From an uncultured Bacteroides sp. (GTDB taxonomy: Bacteria > Bacteroidota > Bacteroidia > Bacteroidales > UBA11471), in assembly GCA_905210875.1 (NCBI GenBank), contig CAJLYN010000008.1, positions 1-27,103 on the forward strand: a DNA stretch of 27,103 nucleotides, written 5' to 3'. This document shows positions 12,825-25,939 of the stretch, piece after piece. A program made the position numbers and the translations under genes. Within the stretch, counting starts at the first letter, position 1. Every line of letters begins with the position of its first letter. Under the pieces are notes generated by a model. That model was given only the letters and a program-made list of their open reading frames with translations. It did no database searches and was not told the origin of the DNA.

Positions 12825-12860
12825 GAAACGGCTGCACCTCTCGGGTGCAGCCGTTTCTGT
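12825..12860 (+). terminator. Strong intrinsic terminator after leuS
   Basis: GAAACGGCTGCACC (12825-12838) pairs perfectly with GGTGCAGCCGTTTC (12844-12857) around a 5-base loop: a 14-bp stem 29 bases after the leuS stop. The following T-tract is weak (TGTTTCT), but the stem length makes termination likely. It separates leuS from the receptor operon. Confidence 0.8.
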
Positions 12861-12889
12861 TTCTCAGGCCGGGAGCATTTGAAACCGAA

Positions 12890-12919
12890 TTGTCACACGA
12901 GTGTCACAGAAACGTCAAG
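12890..12919 (+). promoter_or_regulatory. Three-unit 11-bp-periodic direct repeat, Pho-box-like
   Basis: TGTCAC begins at 12891 and at 12902, and a degenerate copy CGTCAA begins at 12913: three direct repeats with an exact 11-base period, one DNA turn each. The E. coli PhoB box is a direct repeat of CTGTCAT with 11-base period, and other PhoB-like winged-helix regulators also use 11-base tandem repeats. The array lies about 70-95 bases before the receptor ATG and after the leuS terminator, where an activator site would be expected. The regulator is inferred; no phoB gene is in the window. Confidence 0.5.
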
Positions 12920-12950
12920 ACTTTGCATCTCTCCTGTAATAAGAATCCCC

Positions 12951-12958
12951 GACTTTTG
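12951..12958 (+). promoter_or_regulatory. Likely -7 element (GACTTTTG) for the receptor/lipoprotein operon
   Basis: Seven of eight positions match TAnnTTTG (G for the first T), 27 bases before the ATG at 12985. The imperfect match would suit an activator-dependent promoter such as one served by the repeat array upstream. Confidence 0.4.
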
Positions 12959-12984
12959 CTGTCGAAAAAAATTAGGGGAATCAA

Positions 12985-15789
12985 ATGAAACGCTTGACAA
13001 GAATCATCATCGCAGCCACTCTTCTCACCCTCCTGCCGGCCACAGCCTGGTGCGCCGTCATAAAGGGTACCGTCAGAGACCTCGCCACCGGTGAACCCCT
13101 CGCCGGTGCCACCATATCGGTGAGCGGTACCAACCTGGCTGCCTTTACCGACGAAAACGGACTCTTTCAAATCGACAACCTCAAAGCCGGAGCCTACACC
13201 CTCATCGTCAACTACATCTCCTACCAGACCCTCACCCTCGCCGACCAGCGGGTACTCGAAAGCGCCCCGCTCACCCTCGACATACGGCTCAAAGCCGACG
13301 ACCAGAACCTCGACGAGGTGGTCGTCGTGGGGCAGATGCGCCGCAACACCGAACTGGGCATGATTGCCGCCACCAAGACCAGCCTCGTGATACAGAGCGG
13401 CGTGTCGTCGCAACAGATAAAGATAGCCCAGGACAAGGACGCCTCCGAAGCCATACGCCGGGTGTCGGGCATCAGCCTCATCAACGACAAGTTTGTAATG
13501 GTGCGCGGCCTCTCCGAACGCTACAACAACGTGTGGATAAACGGTAGCGCCGTGCCCAGCACCGAAGCCGATTCGCGCGCCTTCTCGTTCGACATCATAC
13601 CCAGCTCGCAGCTCGAAAACATCGCCATCGTCAAATCGCCCGCTCCCGAATATCCGGCCGATTTCAGTGGTGGATTTATCCTGCTCACCACCAAAGACCT
13701 CCCCGCCGAGAACAACTTCACCCTCTCGGTAGGCGGCAACATCAACGACGCCACCCACTTCCGCAACTTCAAGTACAGCCGAGGCAGCCGCACCGACTTC
13801 CTCGGATTTGACAACGGCCTGCGCGCCCTGCCCGGCGGCATCGACGCCACCCTCAACCCCATTGCCGGCAACGGTGTCGACCTGCAAGGCAACGGCTTCA
13901 ACAACGACTGGCGGGTGCGCACGATGAATCCCGTGGGCGACCTCAGCCTCAGCGCCGACGTGAGCCGCATACGCCGCCTTGCCGACGGCGGCAAGCTGGG
14001 ACTCATCGGTGCCCTCAATTACAGCAACAGCTACAAGACATTCCTCGACATGGAAAATTCGCTCTTCGGCGCCTACGACACCGAGAACGACCGCAGCAAC
14101 TACCTGCGCCACAGTCAGGACGACCAGTTCAACCACACCGCCCGCATCGGTGCCATGCTCAACCTCACGTTTGTCCCCGCCAAAGACAACAACCGCTTTG
14201 AATTCAAAAACATCTTCAACCAGATAGGCACCGACCGCTATACCTACCGCACCGGCATCAGTGCCCAGAACAACCACGAAGAGAACGCCGAATACTATTA
14301 CAGCAGCCGCACCACCTACAACGGCCAGTTCACCGGCAAACACACCTTCGAGAGCGACTACTTCGATTGGAGCGCCGGCTATGCCTACGCCAACCGCCTG
14401 CTGCCCGACCGCCGCAAATACCTCATCGACGATGCCCTCGAAACCGGCGTGCTCGCCCTCTCGACCGGTAACGACATCACCCGCGAATTTACCCGCCTCG
14501 ACGAACACATCGTCTCGGCCAACGCCAACTACCGCCACGACTTCGAGTGGGGCAGCTTTACCCCCACACTCAAAGCCGGAGCCTACGGCGAATACCGCAC
14601 CCGCAGCTACCGCACCCGCAGCTTCATCTACAACTGGAATTACAGCCAGAACACCCTGCCCGACGGATTCCGCCACATGGACCTTCCCACCGAACTCCTC
14701 ACCGACGGAAACTACGGTGCCGACAAGCTCTACCTGCTCGAAGAACTCAAAATGCGCAACAACTACGACGGCAACAACCTGCTGGGAGCCGGATACGTGG
14801 GTGTGAACCTGCCGTGGAGAGGATTCAACCTCTACGCCGGTGTGCGTTTCGAACACAGCGACATGGAGCTCATACGCAACACCCGCGACTACGAAGAGAG
14901 CCCGCAAAGCACCCACTACATCTACGACGACCTCTTCCCCTCGGTCAACGCCACCTACAAGTTCAACGACGAGCACCAGTTGCGCGCCTCCTACGGCAAG
15001 TCAATCAACCGTCCCGAGTTCCGCGAGGTATCCCCCTCGGTCTTCTACGACTTCGACCTGGCCTCGAACGTACAAGGTAACACCGAGCTGCGTCCCTGCT
15101 ATGTACAGAACTTCGACCTGCGGTACGAATGGTATCCCTCCAAAGGCGAACAGATATCGGTAGCCCTCTTCTACAAACACTTCGACGACCCCATCGAGTG
15201 GACCTACACCGTGGCCGGAGGTACCGACCTCGTCTACTCCTACCGCAATGCCGACGGCGCATATAGCTACGGACTCGAAGTAGACCTGCGCAAGAACCTC
15301 GCCTTCATGGGAATGCCCTCGTTCGACTTCGTCTTCAACGGCGCCCTCATCAAGAGCCTTGTAGAGTTTCCCGAGGGCGACCGCGAAAAAGACCGCCCCA
15401 TGCAGGGCCAGTCGCCCTACCTCATCAACACCGGTCTCTCTTACCGCCACGAAAAGAGCGGTATCACCGCCGCCCTCTTCTACAACCGCATAGGCAAACG
15501 CATCACCGGTGTGGGCCGCTACCTCGGCAGCTCGGGCAACGAAGAGACCGTGCGCATACCCGACTCCTACGAGATGCCGCGTGATGTCATCGACCTGAGT
15601 CTCTCCTGGAAAGCCAAGAAACACTGGGAGGTAAAACTGGGTATCCGCGACCTGCTGGCCGACAAGGTAACCTTCATGCAACTCGACGATGTAACCACCA
15701 AGGCCGGAGAGAGCAAGGTCGTCGAAGAGATTACCCGCCAATACCGTCCGGGACGCAACTTCAACCTCTCGGTAAGCTACACCTTCTGA
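12985..15789 (+). CDS. TonB-dependent outer-membrane receptor with N-terminal carboxypeptidase-regulatory-like domain
   Basis: 934 residues. Signal peptide MKRLTRIIIAATLLTLLPATAWCA. Residues ~25-110 form the carboxypeptidase-regulatory-like beta-sandwich typical of Bacteroidota receptors (IKGTVRDLATGEPLAGATI, then FTDENGLFQI). A TonB-box-like LDEVVVVGQ follows, then a plug domain (~120-230; DASEAIRRVSGISL, MVRGLSERYNNVWING, FSGGFILLTTKD) and a large barrel ending NLSVSYTF. The block SRTDFLGFDNGLRALPGG after the plug marks a recognisable receptor subgroup outside the classical SusC glycan family. Imports a substrate using TonB energy; substrate unknown. It is followed after 67 bases by a surface lipoprotein that is probably its partner. 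The upstream Pho-box-like repeat hints at phosphate-responsive expression. Confidence 0.93.
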   Translation: MKRLTRIIIAATLLTLLPATAWCAVIKGTVRDLATGEPLAGATISVSGTNLAAFTDENGLFQIDNLKAGAYTLIVNYISYQTLTLADQRVLESAPLTLDIRLKADDQNLDEVVVVGQMRRNTELGMIAATKTSLVIQSGVSSQQIKIAQDKDASEAIRRVSGISLINDKFVMVRGLSERYNNVWINGSAVPSTEADSRAFSFDIIPSSQLENIAIVKSPAPEYPADFSGGFILLTTKDLPAENNFTLSVGGNINDATHFRNFKYSRGSRTDFLGFDNGLRALPGGIDATLNPIAGNGVDLQGNGFNNDWRVRTMNPVGDLSLSADVSRIRRLADGGKLGLIGALNYSNSYKTFLDMENSLFGAYDTENDRSNYLRHSQDDQFNHTARIGAMLNLTFVPAKDNNRFEFKNIFNQIGTDRYTYRTGISAQNNHEENAEYYYSSRTTYNGQFTGKHTFESDYFDWSAGYAYANRLLPDRRKYLIDDALETGVLALSTGNDITREFTRLDEHIVSANANYRHDFEWGSFTPTLKAGAYGEYRTRSYRTRSFIYNWNYSQNTLPDGFRHMDLPTELLTDGNYGADKLYLLEELKMRNNYDGNNLLGAGYVGVNLPWRGFNLYAGVRFEHSDMELIRNTRDYEESPQSTHYIYDDLFPSVNATYKFNDEHQLRASYGKSINRPEFREVSPSVFYDFDLASNVQGNTELRPCYVQNFDLRYEWYPSKGEQISVALFYKHFDDPIEWTYTVAGGTDLVYSYRNADGAYSYGLEVDLRKNLAFMGMPSFDFVFNGALIKSLVEFPEGDREKDRPMQGQSPYLINTGLSYRHEKSGITAALFYNRIGKRITGVGRYLGSSGNEETVRIPDSYEMPRDVIDLSLSWKAKKHWEVKLGIRDLLADKVTFMQLDDVTTKAGESKVVEEITRQYRPGRNFNLSVSYTF

Positions 15790-15856: not shown

Positions 15857-17353
15857 ATGAAATCGAAAAAATTTCTCAACTGGGCTTTCATCGCCCTTAT
15901 GTGTGGAGCTGTAACCGCTTGCAGCGACGACGATGACAACAAGGGTGTCGACAATCAAGGACAAGGCGGCAGCAGCAGCCTCGTATTCGACGGCAACGTC
16001 ATCGGTAACGGCGACCAGGAATTTGTCTTCTCGGGCAAAGAGACCCTCGCCCAAGGCACCTACCTGCTCAAAGGCTGGGTATACATTGCCGACGGTGCCG
16101 AACTCACCATCGAGCCGGGTACCATCATCAAAGGCGACAAGCAGACCAAAGCTGCCCTCATCGTAGAGCCCGGCGGAAAACTTTATGCACAGGGTACTGC
16201 CGACAAACCCATCGTATTCACTTCGGAAGAGGCCAAGGGCAACCGTCGTCCCGGCGACTGGGGCGGACTCATCATCTGCGGTAACGCCCGCAACAACCAG
16301 GGCCAGATGCAAATCGAAGGCGGCCCCCGCACCAAACACGGCGGCAGCAACGATGCCGACAACTCGGGTATCATCAGCTATGTGCGCGTAGAATTTGCCG
16401 GCTATCCCTTCGAGCGCGACAAGGAAATCAACGGTGTAACCTTCGGCTCGGTAGGTAACGGCACACAGATCGACCACGTACAGGTATCGTACTGCAACGA
16501 CGACTCCTACGAGTGGTTCGGCGGTACGGTCAATGCCAAATACCTCGTGGCCTACAAAGGCTGGGACGACGAGTTCGATACCGACAACGGTTTCTCGGGC
16601 AAAGTACAGTTCTGCCTCAGCGTGCGTGACTCCCGCATTGCCGATACCTCCCAATCGAACGGCTTTGAATCGGACAACTGCGCCGACGGTGCCGCCATCG
16701 ACCCCTACACCACCGCTACGTTCAGCAACATCACCTTCGTAGGTCCCAAAGCCGTCGATGCCAACTTTGAAAACTCTACCGACTACATCAACGGTAGTGA
16801 CGTATATCCCAACAACGGTTCGGCACTGGGCCGCTTCCAGGCTGCCATGCAGATACGCCGCAACAGCCGTCTCAACTGCTTCAACTCCATCGCCATCGGC
16901 TACCCCATCGGTCTCATTCTCGACAACCAGAAGGGCGATACCCAAAGTGCTGCCACCAACAGCCTGCTGAAACTTCAAAACATCTGGTTTGCCGACATGG
17001 ACGTTACCGGTAGCGATGCCAACAAATCTTACGACGACGTGCTGGTAAGCGGTTACGACGCCGACGGAAATCCCATCTACGACAACACCCAGACCTCGTT
17101 CTCGAGCCGCTTCTTCCTCGCCCAGTCTGGCAATAAGGTGAGCACCCTCGACGAGATGAACCTCACCGGTGCCGAAACCGCCGTAGGTACCAACTTCCGC
17201 CCCGCAGCCGGCAGCCCGCTGCTCTCGGTCGCTTCGTTCACCGACAGCAAACTCGCCTCAATGCAACAAGTAAGCTACATCGGAGCTTTCGACGCCAACG
17301 ATAACTGGCTTGACGGGTGGACCGAATTTGATCCCCAAAATGCCGACTATTAA
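15857..17353 (+). CDS. Surface-exposed lipoprotein, beta-helix-like, partner of the TonB receptor
   Basis: 498 residues. Lipoprotein signal peptide with lipobox VTAC (Cys22), followed at once by SDDDD, which matches the Bacteroidota lipoprotein export signal for surface display. The body has repeated short strands with Gly/Asp turns (VYIADGAELTIEPGTIIKGD, LIVEPGGKLYAQGTADKPI) suggesting a right-handed beta-helix, and a central part rich in Asp/Asn (YKGWDDEFDTDNGF, SNGFESDNCADGA). I do not recognise SusD features such as TPR helices, so it is not a SusD. It likely captures substrate for, or assists, the receptor encoded 67 bases upstream; the strong terminator after it closes the operon. Function is otherwise unknown. 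Confidence 0.88.
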   Translation: MKSKKFLNWAFIALMCGAVTACSDDDDNKGVDNQGQGGSSSLVFDGNVIGNGDQEFVFSGKETLAQGTYLLKGWVYIADGAELTIEPGTIIKGDKQTKAALIVEPGGKLYAQGTADKPIVFTSEEAKGNRRPGDWGGLIICGNARNNQGQMQIEGGPRTKHGGSNDADNSGIISYVRVEFAGYPFERDKEINGVTFGSVGNGTQIDHVQVSYCNDDSYEWFGGTVNAKYLVAYKGWDDEFDTDNGFSGKVQFCLSVRDSRIADTSQSNGFESDNCADGAAIDPYTTATFSNITFVGPKAVDANFENSTDYINGSDVYPNNGSALGRFQAAMQIRRNSRLNCFNSIAIGYPIGLILDNQKGDTQSAATNSLLKLQNIWFADMDVTGSDANKSYDDVLVSGYDADGNPIYDNTQTSFSSRFFLAQSGNKVSTLDEMNLTGAETAVGTNFRPAAGSPLLSVASFTDSKLASMQQVSYIGAFDANDNWLDGWTEFDPQNADY

Positions 17354-17380: not shown

Positions 17381-17414
17381 AAGGCTCCCGCACATGCGGG
17401 GGCCTTTTCTATTA
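17381..17414 (+). terminator. Intrinsic terminator of the receptor/lipoprotein operon
   Basis: AAGGCTCCCGC (17381-17391) pairs with GCGGGGGCCTT (17396-17406) with one T-G pair and loop ACAT, followed by TTCTATTATT. An 11-bp GC-rich stem 28 bases after the lipoprotein stop. Confidence 0.85.
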
Positions 17415-22688: not shown

Positions 22689-22736
22689 ATGAAACAATAC
22701 CAACTATTGAACAACATTTGCGGCTGGGCTTTGTGA
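22689..22736 (+). other. Native N-terminal segment of the DUF2723 protein, out of frame
   Basis: ATG 22689 encodes MKQYQLLNNICGW, which resembles the usual start of DUF2723 proteins, then runs into TGA at 22734-22736. The matching continuation (FVIAAVTYILTLEPTASFWD) is in the next frame from 22730. Adding one base (or four) after TGG at 22725-22727 restores a continuous protein. Confidence 0.8.
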
Positions 22737-25700
22737 TTGCCGCCGTAACGTATATCCTTACGCTCGAACCGACGGCGAGCTTCTGGGATTGCGGTGAATT
22801 CATTTCGTCGGCTTACAAACTCGAAGTGGGACACCCGCCGGGAAACCCCATCTTCATGCTTACCGGACGCTTCTTTGCCAACTTTGCTTCCGACCCCTCG
22901 CAGGTAGCCTACATGATAAACCTCATGTCGGGCCTGTTCAGTGCCGCCACCATACTGCTGCTCTTCTGGACCATTACTCACCTTACCCGCAGGATTCTCG
23001 TGAGAGACAATAGCGAAATGACACTCGCCCAGATGATTGTCATTCTCGGTTGCGGTGCCGTAGGTGCATTGGCCTACGCATGGAGCGACACCTTCTGGTT
23101 TTCGGCCGTCGAAGGCGAAGTATATGCCTACTCGTCGTTCTGTACGGCACTGGTATTCTGGCTCATACTCAAATGGGAAGATGTAGCCGACCGTCCACAC
23201 TCCGACCGCTACATCATACTCATCGCCTATATCATAGGCATATCCATCGCCGTGCACCTGCTCAACCTGCTTACCATACCTGCACTGGTGCTGGTCTATT
23301 ACTTTCACAAATTTCCCACCCCTACCACAAAAGGGGCATTCACGGCATTGCTGCTCTCTTTCGCTGTCATCGTGTTCCTGCTCTATGGTCTTGTTCCGGG
23401 ATTTGTAAAAGTAGCCGGCTGGGCCGAACTCCTCTGCGTCAACGTGCTCGGCATGCCTTTCAATTCGGGTGTCATCGTCTACTTCTTCCTGGTGATAGGC
23501 TGTATTTCTTGGAGTATCTTCGAGACCTACAAGCAGACCAGCCTCAACCGGCTGCGCCTGTCGTTCCTCATCAGTATCATATTGGTAGGAATGCCCTTTA
23601 TCAGCAGTAAAATCTATATCGGCATTCTTATTTCTGCGGCACTGGCCATATTTCTTTTCTACAAGAAACAGTTGCCCGTGCGACTGCTCAACATGATACT
23701 GGTATCGGTACTGGTCATCTTCATCGGCTACTCCTCTTACGCACTCATCGTCATACGTTCGTCGGCCAACACGCCGATGGATCAGAACTCGCCCGAAGAT
23801 ATCTTTGCCCTGGGCAGCTACCTCAACCGTGAGCAGTACGGCGACCGTCCGCTCTTCTACGGACAGACCTTCGTGGCCGATGTTGAACGCAAAGACGGCG
23901 CTCCTCTCTATGAAGAGGGAGCAGCGGTATGGGCCCGTGTGATAAAAACATCGGAAGACGAACCTGACCGCTACGAAATCATCGACCACAAACGCAACTA
24001 CATCTACACACCCGAGCTCTGCATGTTCTTCCCCCGCATGTACAGTCCCGACAGCCGCCACATCGGCGCCTACAAGGAGTGGTCGGGCTTCAAGGGCAAA
24101 CCGGTGAAGGTAAACGGCCGCACCGTGCGTAAACCCACCTTCGTCGAGAATATGCGTTTCTTCATCGACTATCAGGTAAACTTCATGTACTGGCGATACT
24201 TCTTGTGGAACTTTGCCGGCCGACAGAACGATATTCAGGGCCATGGCGATACAGCCTACGGCAACTGGATTACCGGTTTCAATTTCATCGACAATTTCCT
24301 GGTGGGCGACCAGACACTTCTTCCTACCGACCTGAAAGAAAACAAGGGTCGCAACGTATTCTTCATGTTGCCTCTGCTGCTGGGTATATTGGGCATTTTG
24401 TTCCAACTTTATTCAGGAAAAAAAGGTATAGAAAGTTTCTGGGTAGTCTTCTTCCTCTTCTTCATGACGGGACTGGCCATCGTCATCTACCTCAACCAGA
24501 CACCTTACCAACCCCGTGAGCGAGACTATGCCTATGCCGGCTCGTTCTACGCCTTTGCCATCTGGATAGGTATCGGCGTAGCAGCCATATACAAGCTGCT
24601 TTCTAAAAAAATCAACCCCGTGGTTGCAGCTTCCATCGCCACCGTCGTATCGCTGGCCGTACCGGTGCAGATGGTAAGCCAGACCTGGGACGACCACGAC
24701 CGCTCGGGCCGCTATGCCTGCCGTGACTTCGGTAAGAACTACCTCACTTCTGTCGATGAGAACGGTATCATCTTCACTAACGGCGACAACGATACCTTCC
24801 CCTTGTGGTATGCCCAGGAGACCGAAGGATACCGCACCGACGTGCGCGTGTGCAACCTCTCTTACCTGCAAACCGACTGGTATGTGTCGCAAATGAAATC
24901 GCAGGCCTATGAGTCGGATCCGCTGCCCATCTCCATGGAAGAGTACCAATACGGAAACAAAAAACGCGAATATGCCTACATAATCGAACGCGTAAACTAT
25001 CCCATATCGGTAAAAATGGCCATGGAATATTTCCTTTCCGATGATAAGAACACCAAATACATTCCCGGATACGGAAATATAAACTATCTACCCTCCGGCG
25101 AACTTTACATCGACATCGATAAGGAGAAAATCAAAAAGTCGGGCATCGTACCAGCCGGTTACGAAGACAAGATAGTCGACCGCATAAATCTCTCGCTCTC
25201 CGATAAGAGCACCCTCATGCTCAACGAACTGGCTATTATCGACATGCTCAGTACCAATGCCGAGCAGGGCTGGAAACGACCCATCTATTTTGCCTCGACC
25301 GTAGATCCTTCGCTCTTTACCGAGACCGACAAATACTTCATGCGCACCGGCATGGCCTACAAAATCGTTCCTGTCGAGCTCTCCAATGTCTCGGGACGTT
25401 ACCAGGTCGATACCGACGAAATGTACGACAACGTCATGAACAAGTTTGCCTGGGGCGGTATGGATGTCAACCCCGACGTCTACTTCGACGAGACCATTCG
25501 ACGCATGTGCTACTCCTACCGCATCATGTTCATCGATCTCATCGACCAGCTGATATTGGAGGGTAAAAAAGAGAAAGCGCTGAAAGCTCTCGACTACTGT
25601 ATGGAAAAGATACCCGACAGTGTCGTGCCTCACAACTACATCTCCCTGCAACTGGCCATGGACTACTACTTCCTGGGCGAGAACGAAAAGGGAAAAGAGT

Positions 25701-25939
25701 TGCTTACCAAAATTGCCGACAGTGCCCTTGAATATGTCATGTGGATAAACTCGCTCAGCGAAAACAAAAAACGTTCGGTAATGCGTGATTACACCTACAA
25801 CGAAAGAGCTCTCGTCGAACAGGCCATTCCCACCTTCTACCGCTTCGGCGATGAAGAGAGCGGAAAAAAATACCTCGAAATGGCAGCTCTGGCCGGTGTC
25901 AACATCAACCGCTATCTGAAAACCGATACTTTGAGATAA
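22718..25939 (+). CDS. DUF2723-family multi-pass glycosyltransferase (GT-C type), start frameshifted
   Basis: 1073 residues as an open frame from TTG 22718; the true start is probably ATG 22689 in another frame. The first hydrophobic helix is followed by EPTASFWDCGEF, the loop with acidic residues (Asp codon 22787, Glu codon 22796) expected of GT-C enzymes using lipid-linked sugars. About a dozen hydrophobic helices span the first half and middle. The soluble C-terminal half has the family block TNGDNDTFPLWYAQE and ends in TPR-like helices. The human DUF2723 protein TMEM260 is a protein O-mannosyltransferase, so a role in protein O-glycosylation at the inner membrane is a fair inference; Bacteroidota are known for general O-glycosylation of exported proteins. 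Own promoter and terminator, single gene. Confidence 0.85.
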   Translation: MRLGFVIAAVTYILTLEPTASFWDCGEFISSAYKLEVGHPPGNPIFMLTGRFFANFASDPSQVAYMINLMSGLFSAATILLLFWTITHLTRRILVRDNSEMTLAQMIVILGCGAVGALAYAWSDTFWFSAVEGEVYAYSSFCTALVFWLILKWEDVADRPHSDRYIILIAYIIGISIAVHLLNLLTIPALVLVYYFHKFPTPTTKGAFTALLLSFAVIVFLLYGLVPGFVKVAGWAELLCVNVLGMPFNSGVIVYFFLVIGCISWSIFETYKQTSLNRLRLSFLISIILVGMPFISSKIYIGILISAALAIFLFYKKQLPVRLLNMILVSVLVIFIGYSSYALIVIRSSANTPMDQNSPEDIFALGSYLNREQYGDRPLFYGQTFVADVERKDGAPLYEEGAAVWARVIKTSEDEPDRYEIIDHKRNYIYTPELCMFFPRMYSPDSRHIGAYKEWSGFKGKPVKVNGRTVRKPTFVENMRFFIDYQVNFMYWRYFLWNFAGRQNDIQGHGDTAYGNWITGFNFIDNFLVGDQTLLPTDLKENKGRNVFFMLPLLLGILGILFQLYSGKKGIESFWVVFFLFFMTGLAIVIYLNQTPYQPRERDYAYAGSFYAFAIWIGIGVAAIYKLLSKKINPVVAASIATVVSLAVPVQMVSQTWDDHDRSGRYACRDFGKNYLTSVDENGIIFTNGDNDTFPLWYAQETEGYRTDVRVCNLSYLQTDWYVSQMKSQAYESDPLPISMEEYQYGNKKREYAYIIERVNYPISVKMAMEYFLSDDKNTKYIPGYGNINYLPSGELYIDIDKEKIKKSGIVPAGYEDKIVDRINLSLSDKSTLMLNELAIIDMLSTNAEQGWKRPIYFASTVDPSLFTETDKYFMRTGMAYKIVPVELSNVSGRYQVDTDEMYDNVMNKFAWGGMDVNPDVYFDETIRRMCYSYRIMFIDLIDQLILEGKKEKALKALDYCMEKIPDSVVPHNYISLQLAMDYYFLGENEKGKELLTKIADSALEYVMWINSLSENKKRSVMRDYTYNERALVEQAIPTFYRFGDEESGKKYLEMAALAGVNINRYLKTDTLR

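Follow-up and report, generated by a model that had tools for sequence, protein, structure and literature searches.

The window analysed here is a 27,103-nucleotide stretch of DNA from an uncultured Bacteroides sp. It contains, downstream of leuS, a transcription unit made up of a TonB-dependent receptor gene and a surface lipoprotein gene, flanked by terminator-like hairpins at 12825–12857 and 17381–17406 (in the window as a whole a terminator scan finds 8 such structures and shuffled sequence gives 6.7, about the same number). This setting, with leuS and a hairpin ahead of a repeat array and the receptor and lipoprotein behind it, is the one given in a preliminary description of the locus. 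The features are as follows.

12825..12857, forward strand: hairpin resembling an intrinsic terminator, downstream of leuS (14-bp perfect inverted repeat, T-rich tail)
12880..12945, forward strand: six-unit 11-nt direct-repeat array, a proposed PhoB-type binding array, with units at 12880 (TGAAAC), 12891 (TGTCAC), 12902 (TGTCAC), 12913 (CGTCAA), 12924 (TGCATC) and 12935 (TGTAAT)
12951..12959, forward strand: -7-like promoter box, GACTTTTGC, in which TTTGC starts 14 nt past the last TGTAAT
12985..15789, forward strand: TonB-dependent receptor P0001, 934 aa (Pfam PF13715, PF07715, PF00593, PF14905)
15857..17353, forward strand: surface lipoprotein P0002, 498 aa (PF28492, through the precomputed label of its homologues)
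17381..17406, forward strand: terminator-like hairpin closing the two-gene operon, an 11-pair stem with a T tail

The receptor and the lipoprotein form a stable pair. The lipoprotein gene adjoins the receptor gene in all 12 testable orthologous loci, and a lipoprotein homologue lies within the flanking sequence in 28 of 30 receptor loci of a wider set. Among 8000 scored candidates at least 7542 are homologues of P0002, and Cys22 is invariant across 26 aligned homologues. P0002 itself has no Pfam match in the domain scan, and sequence searches of solved structures gave no match for it or for its 26-row profile; for P0001 the same search returned nothing but small domain matches. A SusCD or PusCD pair was considered and rejected, since P0002 has no SusD-family match in Pfam and the receptor reaches 64.2 bits with the NCBIfam SusC/RagA model, far below its cut-off of 368.25. 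Elsewhere in the window a PorZ-like type IX secretion protein (PF21544, 19027–21342), unrelated to the array, is encoded downstream of YitT and Ham1-family genes, and positions 22718–25939 encode a TMEM260-like protein O-mannosyltransferase family protein of 1073 aa (PF11028).

The preliminary description had reported three repeat units in front of the receptor, TGTCAC at 12891–12896, TGTCAC at 12902–12907 and CGTCAA at 12913–12918, at a spacing of exactly 11 nt. All three are present as described, together with the TGTCA-like core and the 11-nt tandem geometry of PhoB sites, and they turn out to be half of a longer array, as the units at 12880, 12924 and 12935 share their phase. Within the window there is a single exact match to the three-unit pattern, and shuffled sequence gives a mean of 0.08 matches to it even at three mismatches. 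With a phased model of five units plus TTTGC, for which the window was outside the training set, the array scores 36.3 (z 10.7, equalled in none of 300 shuffles); the sixth unit, at 12880, is assigned by phase alone. On both strands of the window no other site exceeds 6 apart from the array's own in-phase shadows (18.7 and 13.5), and when periods from 7 to 16 are tried the maximum at any period other than 11 is 13.9. Nothing in Rfam matched within the window.

The TTTGC at 12955–12959, which ends 25 nt ahead of the receptor ATG at 12985, reads within GACTTTTG as a probable Bacteroidales-type -7 box, the Bacteroides -7 consensus being TAnnTTTG. Sigma-70-type promoters, the wrong type for this host, were set aside; the window has 2 of them and its shuffles 1.9. 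The Pho box of E. coli consists of TGTCA-like units 11 nt apart, mostly two to four of them, at the place of the upstream promoter element. The array of the window is likewise made of head-to-tail 11-nt units with a TGTCA-like core and occupies the same place, and such arrays again stand before phosphate genes. It differs in having six units, in cores that drift to TGTAAY and [GC]TTAAC, and in the position of the last unit, 14 nt ahead of a Bacteroidales TTTGC box.

The array is conserved before orthologous receptors. One scan of genome contigs yielded 17 loci with receptor relatives, of which one (L017) is a partial match. When their promoters are aligned on TTTGC, up to six TGTAAY-like units appear at 11-nt intervals, the last of them 14 nt ahead of TTTGC, and this picture is common to Segatella copri, Prevotella bivia, Bacteroides nordii, Muribaculaceae and others. 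Thirteen promoters were used for training. Left out were L001, whose promoter is near-identical to that of the window, L004 and L016, in which the last unit reads AGCAAT, and the partial L017; the 14-nt distance is the same in all 13, which were themselves aligned on TTTGC. Each training promoter was scored with itself left out, and once the near-identical L001 is set aside, 13 of 15 promoters outscore every one of their own 300 shuffles. The training scores are partly selected because the TTTGC positions were picked by eye, which does not apply to the score of the window. Twelve training rows score best at the picked position and one (L014) 11 nt away. The two poor promoters, from Parabacteroides distasonis (L004; z 0.2, 117 of 300 shuffles scoring at least as high) and another Parabacteroides (L016; z 2.5, 7 of 300), are those with AGCAAT as the last unit. 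A strict search for two units followed by TTTGC matches no more than 5 of 60 relatives, at nine sites, and its reversed control gives one.

A model trained on receptor promoters also recognizes the pst promoters of relatives, in line with the expectation in the preliminary description that phosphate-uptake genes would carry the same repeat. At a threshold of 14 bits, 14 of 16 first-gene promoters from 14 genomes are positive, as are 12 of 283 control open reading frames, which came from a simple caller and include some spurious ones; two divergent regions, in G009 and B. nordii, contribute two promoters each to the 16. The medians are 25.0 for pst promoters (15 in that comparison) and -6.7 for the 283 controls. 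Eleven of the 12 high controls are receptor orthologues or paralogues, a lipoprotein, phoU, pit, a PlcP-like enzyme or a calcium ATPase encoded next to phoBR-pit; the remaining one is a VTT-domain gene with no link to phosphate or to the receptor-lipoprotein pair. The pst promoter of a same-genus genome (G004) scores 28.6 and that of B. nordii pstC, whose reading frame is split into pieces, 22.9. Two promoters, those of B. nordii pstS (19.9) and of G075 (17.8), pass the threshold with TTTGC missing from its usual position. Of the two misses, the second pst operon of G072 lacks the array (2.0), and G028 (L095) has two clean units, scoring -2.4 with four units. PstS models are above cut-off for the pst operons scanned. 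The first gene ahead of pstS has no domain match in G009, G035 and G027 and is porin O/P in G046. The set leaves out L135 and L103 (short upstream sequence), L106 (ambiguous operon) and most PhoU loci.

Beyond pst, the array stands in relatives before pit, porin O/P and lipid-remodelling-type genes, before a metallophosphoesterase-glycosyltransferase-ppk-ppx operon and sometimes before phoB. A sequence-only model (R1) built from ten promoters, including that of the window, was run on 12 genomes with 150 candidates scored in each. Nine of these genomes gave it no sequence, although in one, G001, the receptor promoter is near-identical to that of the window, and the nine returned at least 19 matches at E ≤ 0.01. 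Among the matches listed, three precede the orthologous receptor (G001, G004, G035), another five stand before a paralogous one (G001, G004–G007) and nine before phosphate genes: pstS in G004 and G037, the gene in porin position of the G035 pst operon, pit three times (twice in G003, once in G028), ppk in G028, the metallophosphoesterase-glycosyltransferase-ppk-ppx operon of G004 and, behind a short open reading frame in G035, a glycosyltransferase of the same Pfam family as that of the G004 operon. The Pit identity of the array-bearing pit genes was confirmed by scan. Two unexplained matches (G006 C61 and G007 C7), inside a small lipoprotein gene, look false; matches at E > 0.01 were considered in part. 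When the search was repeated on ten genomes, including four that had been used in training, the matches beside phoB were taken in; G070 (E 1.9e-4) and G072 (E 0.05) have such a match immediately ahead of phoB. In G001 and G004 the promoter of the phoB copy next to pit lacks an array (-5.4 and -4.4).

The paralogous receptor, 26% identical, has a strong array in G001 (L089:6961-11052, 38.2), where a beta-helix lipoprotein gene follows, and in G004 (L090, 39.8), and is proposed as a second member of the regulon. At L088 and L091, where a gene for a calcium P-type ATPase lies close to phoB-phoR-pit, two units in phase stand 14 nt ahead of a TTTGC of that gene.

S. copri (G061) and P. bivia (G064) have no pstC above cut-off. 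Arrays precede pit and porin O/P in the former and DUF47-pit and phoB-phoR-porin O/P in the latter, and the receptor-lipoprotein genes of both carry arrays too. These species apparently have a phosphate regulon without Pst.

Gene neighbourhood points in the same direction. In G037 the orthologues of the receptor (46% identical) and the lipoprotein (56%) are divergent from pstS-pstC-pstA-pstB-phoU-phoB-phoR, and the region between them has an array on each side (40.7 and 29.0). A profile check of the genes of this cluster other than PstA places PstS, PstC, PstB, PhoB and PhoR above the NCBIfam cut-offs and PhoU just below (124.9 vs 130.25). PhoB (NF053854) is above cut-off in 23 of 25 genomes of relatives, among them G001 and G004, where PhoR adjoins PhoB; it is truncated in G006, and none is above cut-off in G007, which is 99% complete and whose paralogous receptor is preceded by an array all the same. 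PhoU exceeds its cut-off in only one (G004) of seven same-genus genomes, and the nearest relative, G001 (83% complete), has two PhoB and no PhoU match. Two PhoB-family regulators above cut-off per genome occur in G001, G004, G064, G065, G070 and G072.

At the level of the class the lipoprotein is present in 108 of 149 genomes. In 20 loci chosen for long flanks the receptor lies beside the lipoprotein in 18, a PhoB-like regulator adjoins the pair in nine and a pst-phoU cluster in two, one of which is shared, so that ten of the 20 are linked to phosphate regulation or uptake genes; for the nine regulators the two PhoB models fit best, yet below cut-off. Four-unit arrays scoring at least 14 are found at seven of these loci (Fisher p 5.6e-5 against controls, relatedness ignored, the promoters being searched over 420 nt and the controls over 310), and the other 13 score below 14. 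The cores of the class-level arrays have drifted to [GC]TTAAC.

Because relatives carry the same array at phosphate-uptake genes, phosphate starvation very probably turns on the receptor-lipoprotein pair, and sequence comparison leaves the regulatory reading of the array well supported. We infer that PhoB binds at the site in the window and activates the operon, and that the receptor takes up phosphate or some phosphorylated compound. Our preferred explanation, to which we give a probability of roughly 0.87, is that the array acts as a PhoB-type Pho box that would turn on the operon for phosphorus scavenging when phosphate runs short. PhoB dimers line up head-to-tail along a single face of the DNA helix, and the dimer nearest the promoter touches the sigma factor and thereby replaces the upstream promoter element. 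In the proposed mechanism, PhoR would phosphorylate PhoB under phosphate starvation, and PhoB dimers would bind the 11-nt units head-to-tail along one face of the helix. The last dimer, just upstream of the -7 box and in place of a -33 element, would contact the sigma factor and recruit RNA polymerase; a PhoB-type contact at the -33 position would fit the conserved 14-nt distance. The operon between the two terminator-like hairpins would then be transcribed, and receptor and lipoprotein would act jointly in the outer membrane to scavenge some source of phosphorus. Several observations count against this explanation: the two pst misses and the two pst promoters that lack TTTGC, the poor Parabacteroides scores, the few relatives that match the strict pattern, the array-free phoB copies of G001 and G004, the scarcity of PhoU in the genus, and the array of G007, where no PhoB passes the cut-off. 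The relatives compared are, moreover, related to one another and do not count as independent samples.

Related systems have been described in published work. In Flavobacterium johnsoniae the receptor Fjoh_0545 and the form II lipoprotein Fjoh_0546 lie in the phoBR operon (PUSIV) and are strongly induced when phosphate is depleted; Table 1 lists transcript FC values of 8.02 and 9.91 for them at phosphate depletion, taken here as log2 since the text of the paper uses log2FC (PMC8115612). P0001 has the Pfam domains PF07715, PF13715 and PF14905 of that system, and P0002, like Fjoh_0546, is a surface lipoprotein with no Pfam domain of its own next to a receptor; unlike the F. johnsoniae genes, the pair in the window is not beside phoBR. 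As the likeness is one of domain set, gene order and neighbourhood, Fjoh_0545/0546 is best described as the apparent counterpart. The authors relate the form II lipoprotein to one of Caulobacter (PMC8115612). Caulobacter ElpS (cc0170) is a surface lipoprotein made at phosphate starvation and encoded beside the TonB receptor gene cc0171, and its relatives include gut Bacteroides according to its authors; the cc0171 receptor is reported to be constitutive although elpS is induced, which counts against the preferred explanation (PMC2996285). The window has the same arrangement of a surface lipoprotein gene beside a TonB receptor gene, whereas ElpS is alphaproteobacterial and next to a type II secretion system. 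In B. fragilis, PhoB binds the pstC promoter in EMSA, and pst, ppk-ppx and a phosphate permease are PhoB-dependent (PMC3547664); the array stands at the same kinds of genes in the relatives of the window.

Predicted Pho boxes are mentioned at plcP clusters of marine bacteria, with flavobacteria among the organisms studied (PMC4796936). The literature search covered text passages, for the most part of open-access papers, and turned up no Pho box sequence in print for Bacteroidota, the nearest being the TTTAACA of Riemerella; a prediction for Bacteroidota may already exist, because the sites of PMC4796936 may be in its supplement.

The Riemerella motif bears on the first alternative, that another OmpR-family regulator, sharing PhoB targets or recognizing similar 11-nt repeats, binds the array and PhoB is not the main activator. 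Binding to 10–11-nt tandem repeats is common among OmpR-family regulators. G007, as noted, has the array, and its best regulator reaches 186.4 bits with the PhoB model, whose cut-off is 270. Riemerella PhoP is a Bacteroidota OmpR-family regulator tied to low phosphate, with a DAP-seq motif of core TTTAACA that its authors call ArcA-like (PMC9603813). The [GC]TTAAC units of the class-level loci are close to this core; unlike the array of the window, the Riemerella motif comes, in the accessible part of the source, with no description of an 11-nt array or of a link to pst or the lipoprotein. Against a different regulator, most targets of the array are phosphate genes, and phoB or phoR lies beside the array or the receptor pair in many loci, which makes this alternative unlikely.

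According to a second alternative the array belongs to a wider response of receptor genes to envelope or nutrient conditions, and the phosphate genes are only one part of that response. The five matches before the paralogous receptor, among the at least 19 of R1, would fit such a response, as would one weak match in S. copri (E 0.0265) before a SusC/SusD-type pair. However, strong matches are few per genome among those listed, and the VTT-domain gene is the sole control of 283 that reaches 14 with no phosphate or receptor-lipoprotein link, so we consider this very improbable. That the array is a chance repeat in the leuS-receptor spacer is hardly credible: short repeats are common and three units alone would be modest evidence, but phase and TTTGC distance are conserved across orthologues, no shuffle in 300 matches the window, and the array was found independently at pst promoters.

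A wider proposal can be put forward tentatively, at somewhat less than even odds. Bacteroidota might use a lineage-specific extended Pho box, of up to six 11-nt half-sites at a fixed distance from a TTTG -7 box, and many of them might possess, under its control, a conserved receptor-lipoprotein machine of the outer membrane for phosphorus scavenging. This machine would work even where PstSCAB is not detectable, as in S. copri and P. bivia, and there would form, with Pit and porin O/P, the main answer to phosphate starvation. A readable Bacteroidota Pho box would make the phosphate regulon predictable from sequence in uncultured gut species, and a widespread unnamed receptor-lipoprotein pair would gain a testable role in phosphorus acquisition in the gut, an environment in which most other outer-membrane receptors are interpreted as glycan transporters.

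Relatives of the lipoprotein, 41–46% identical, are also encoded on thirteen IMG/VR viral contigs of 23–228 kb (L187–L199). The flanking sequence of these contigs has no receptor match, and no array lies directly before the lipoprotein gene; L197 has one site scoring 16.0 about 780 nt ahead. In the four contigs with open reading frames listed the neighbouring genes are phage-like by eye, and the viral relative is possibly a phage-borne phosphate-starvation gene.
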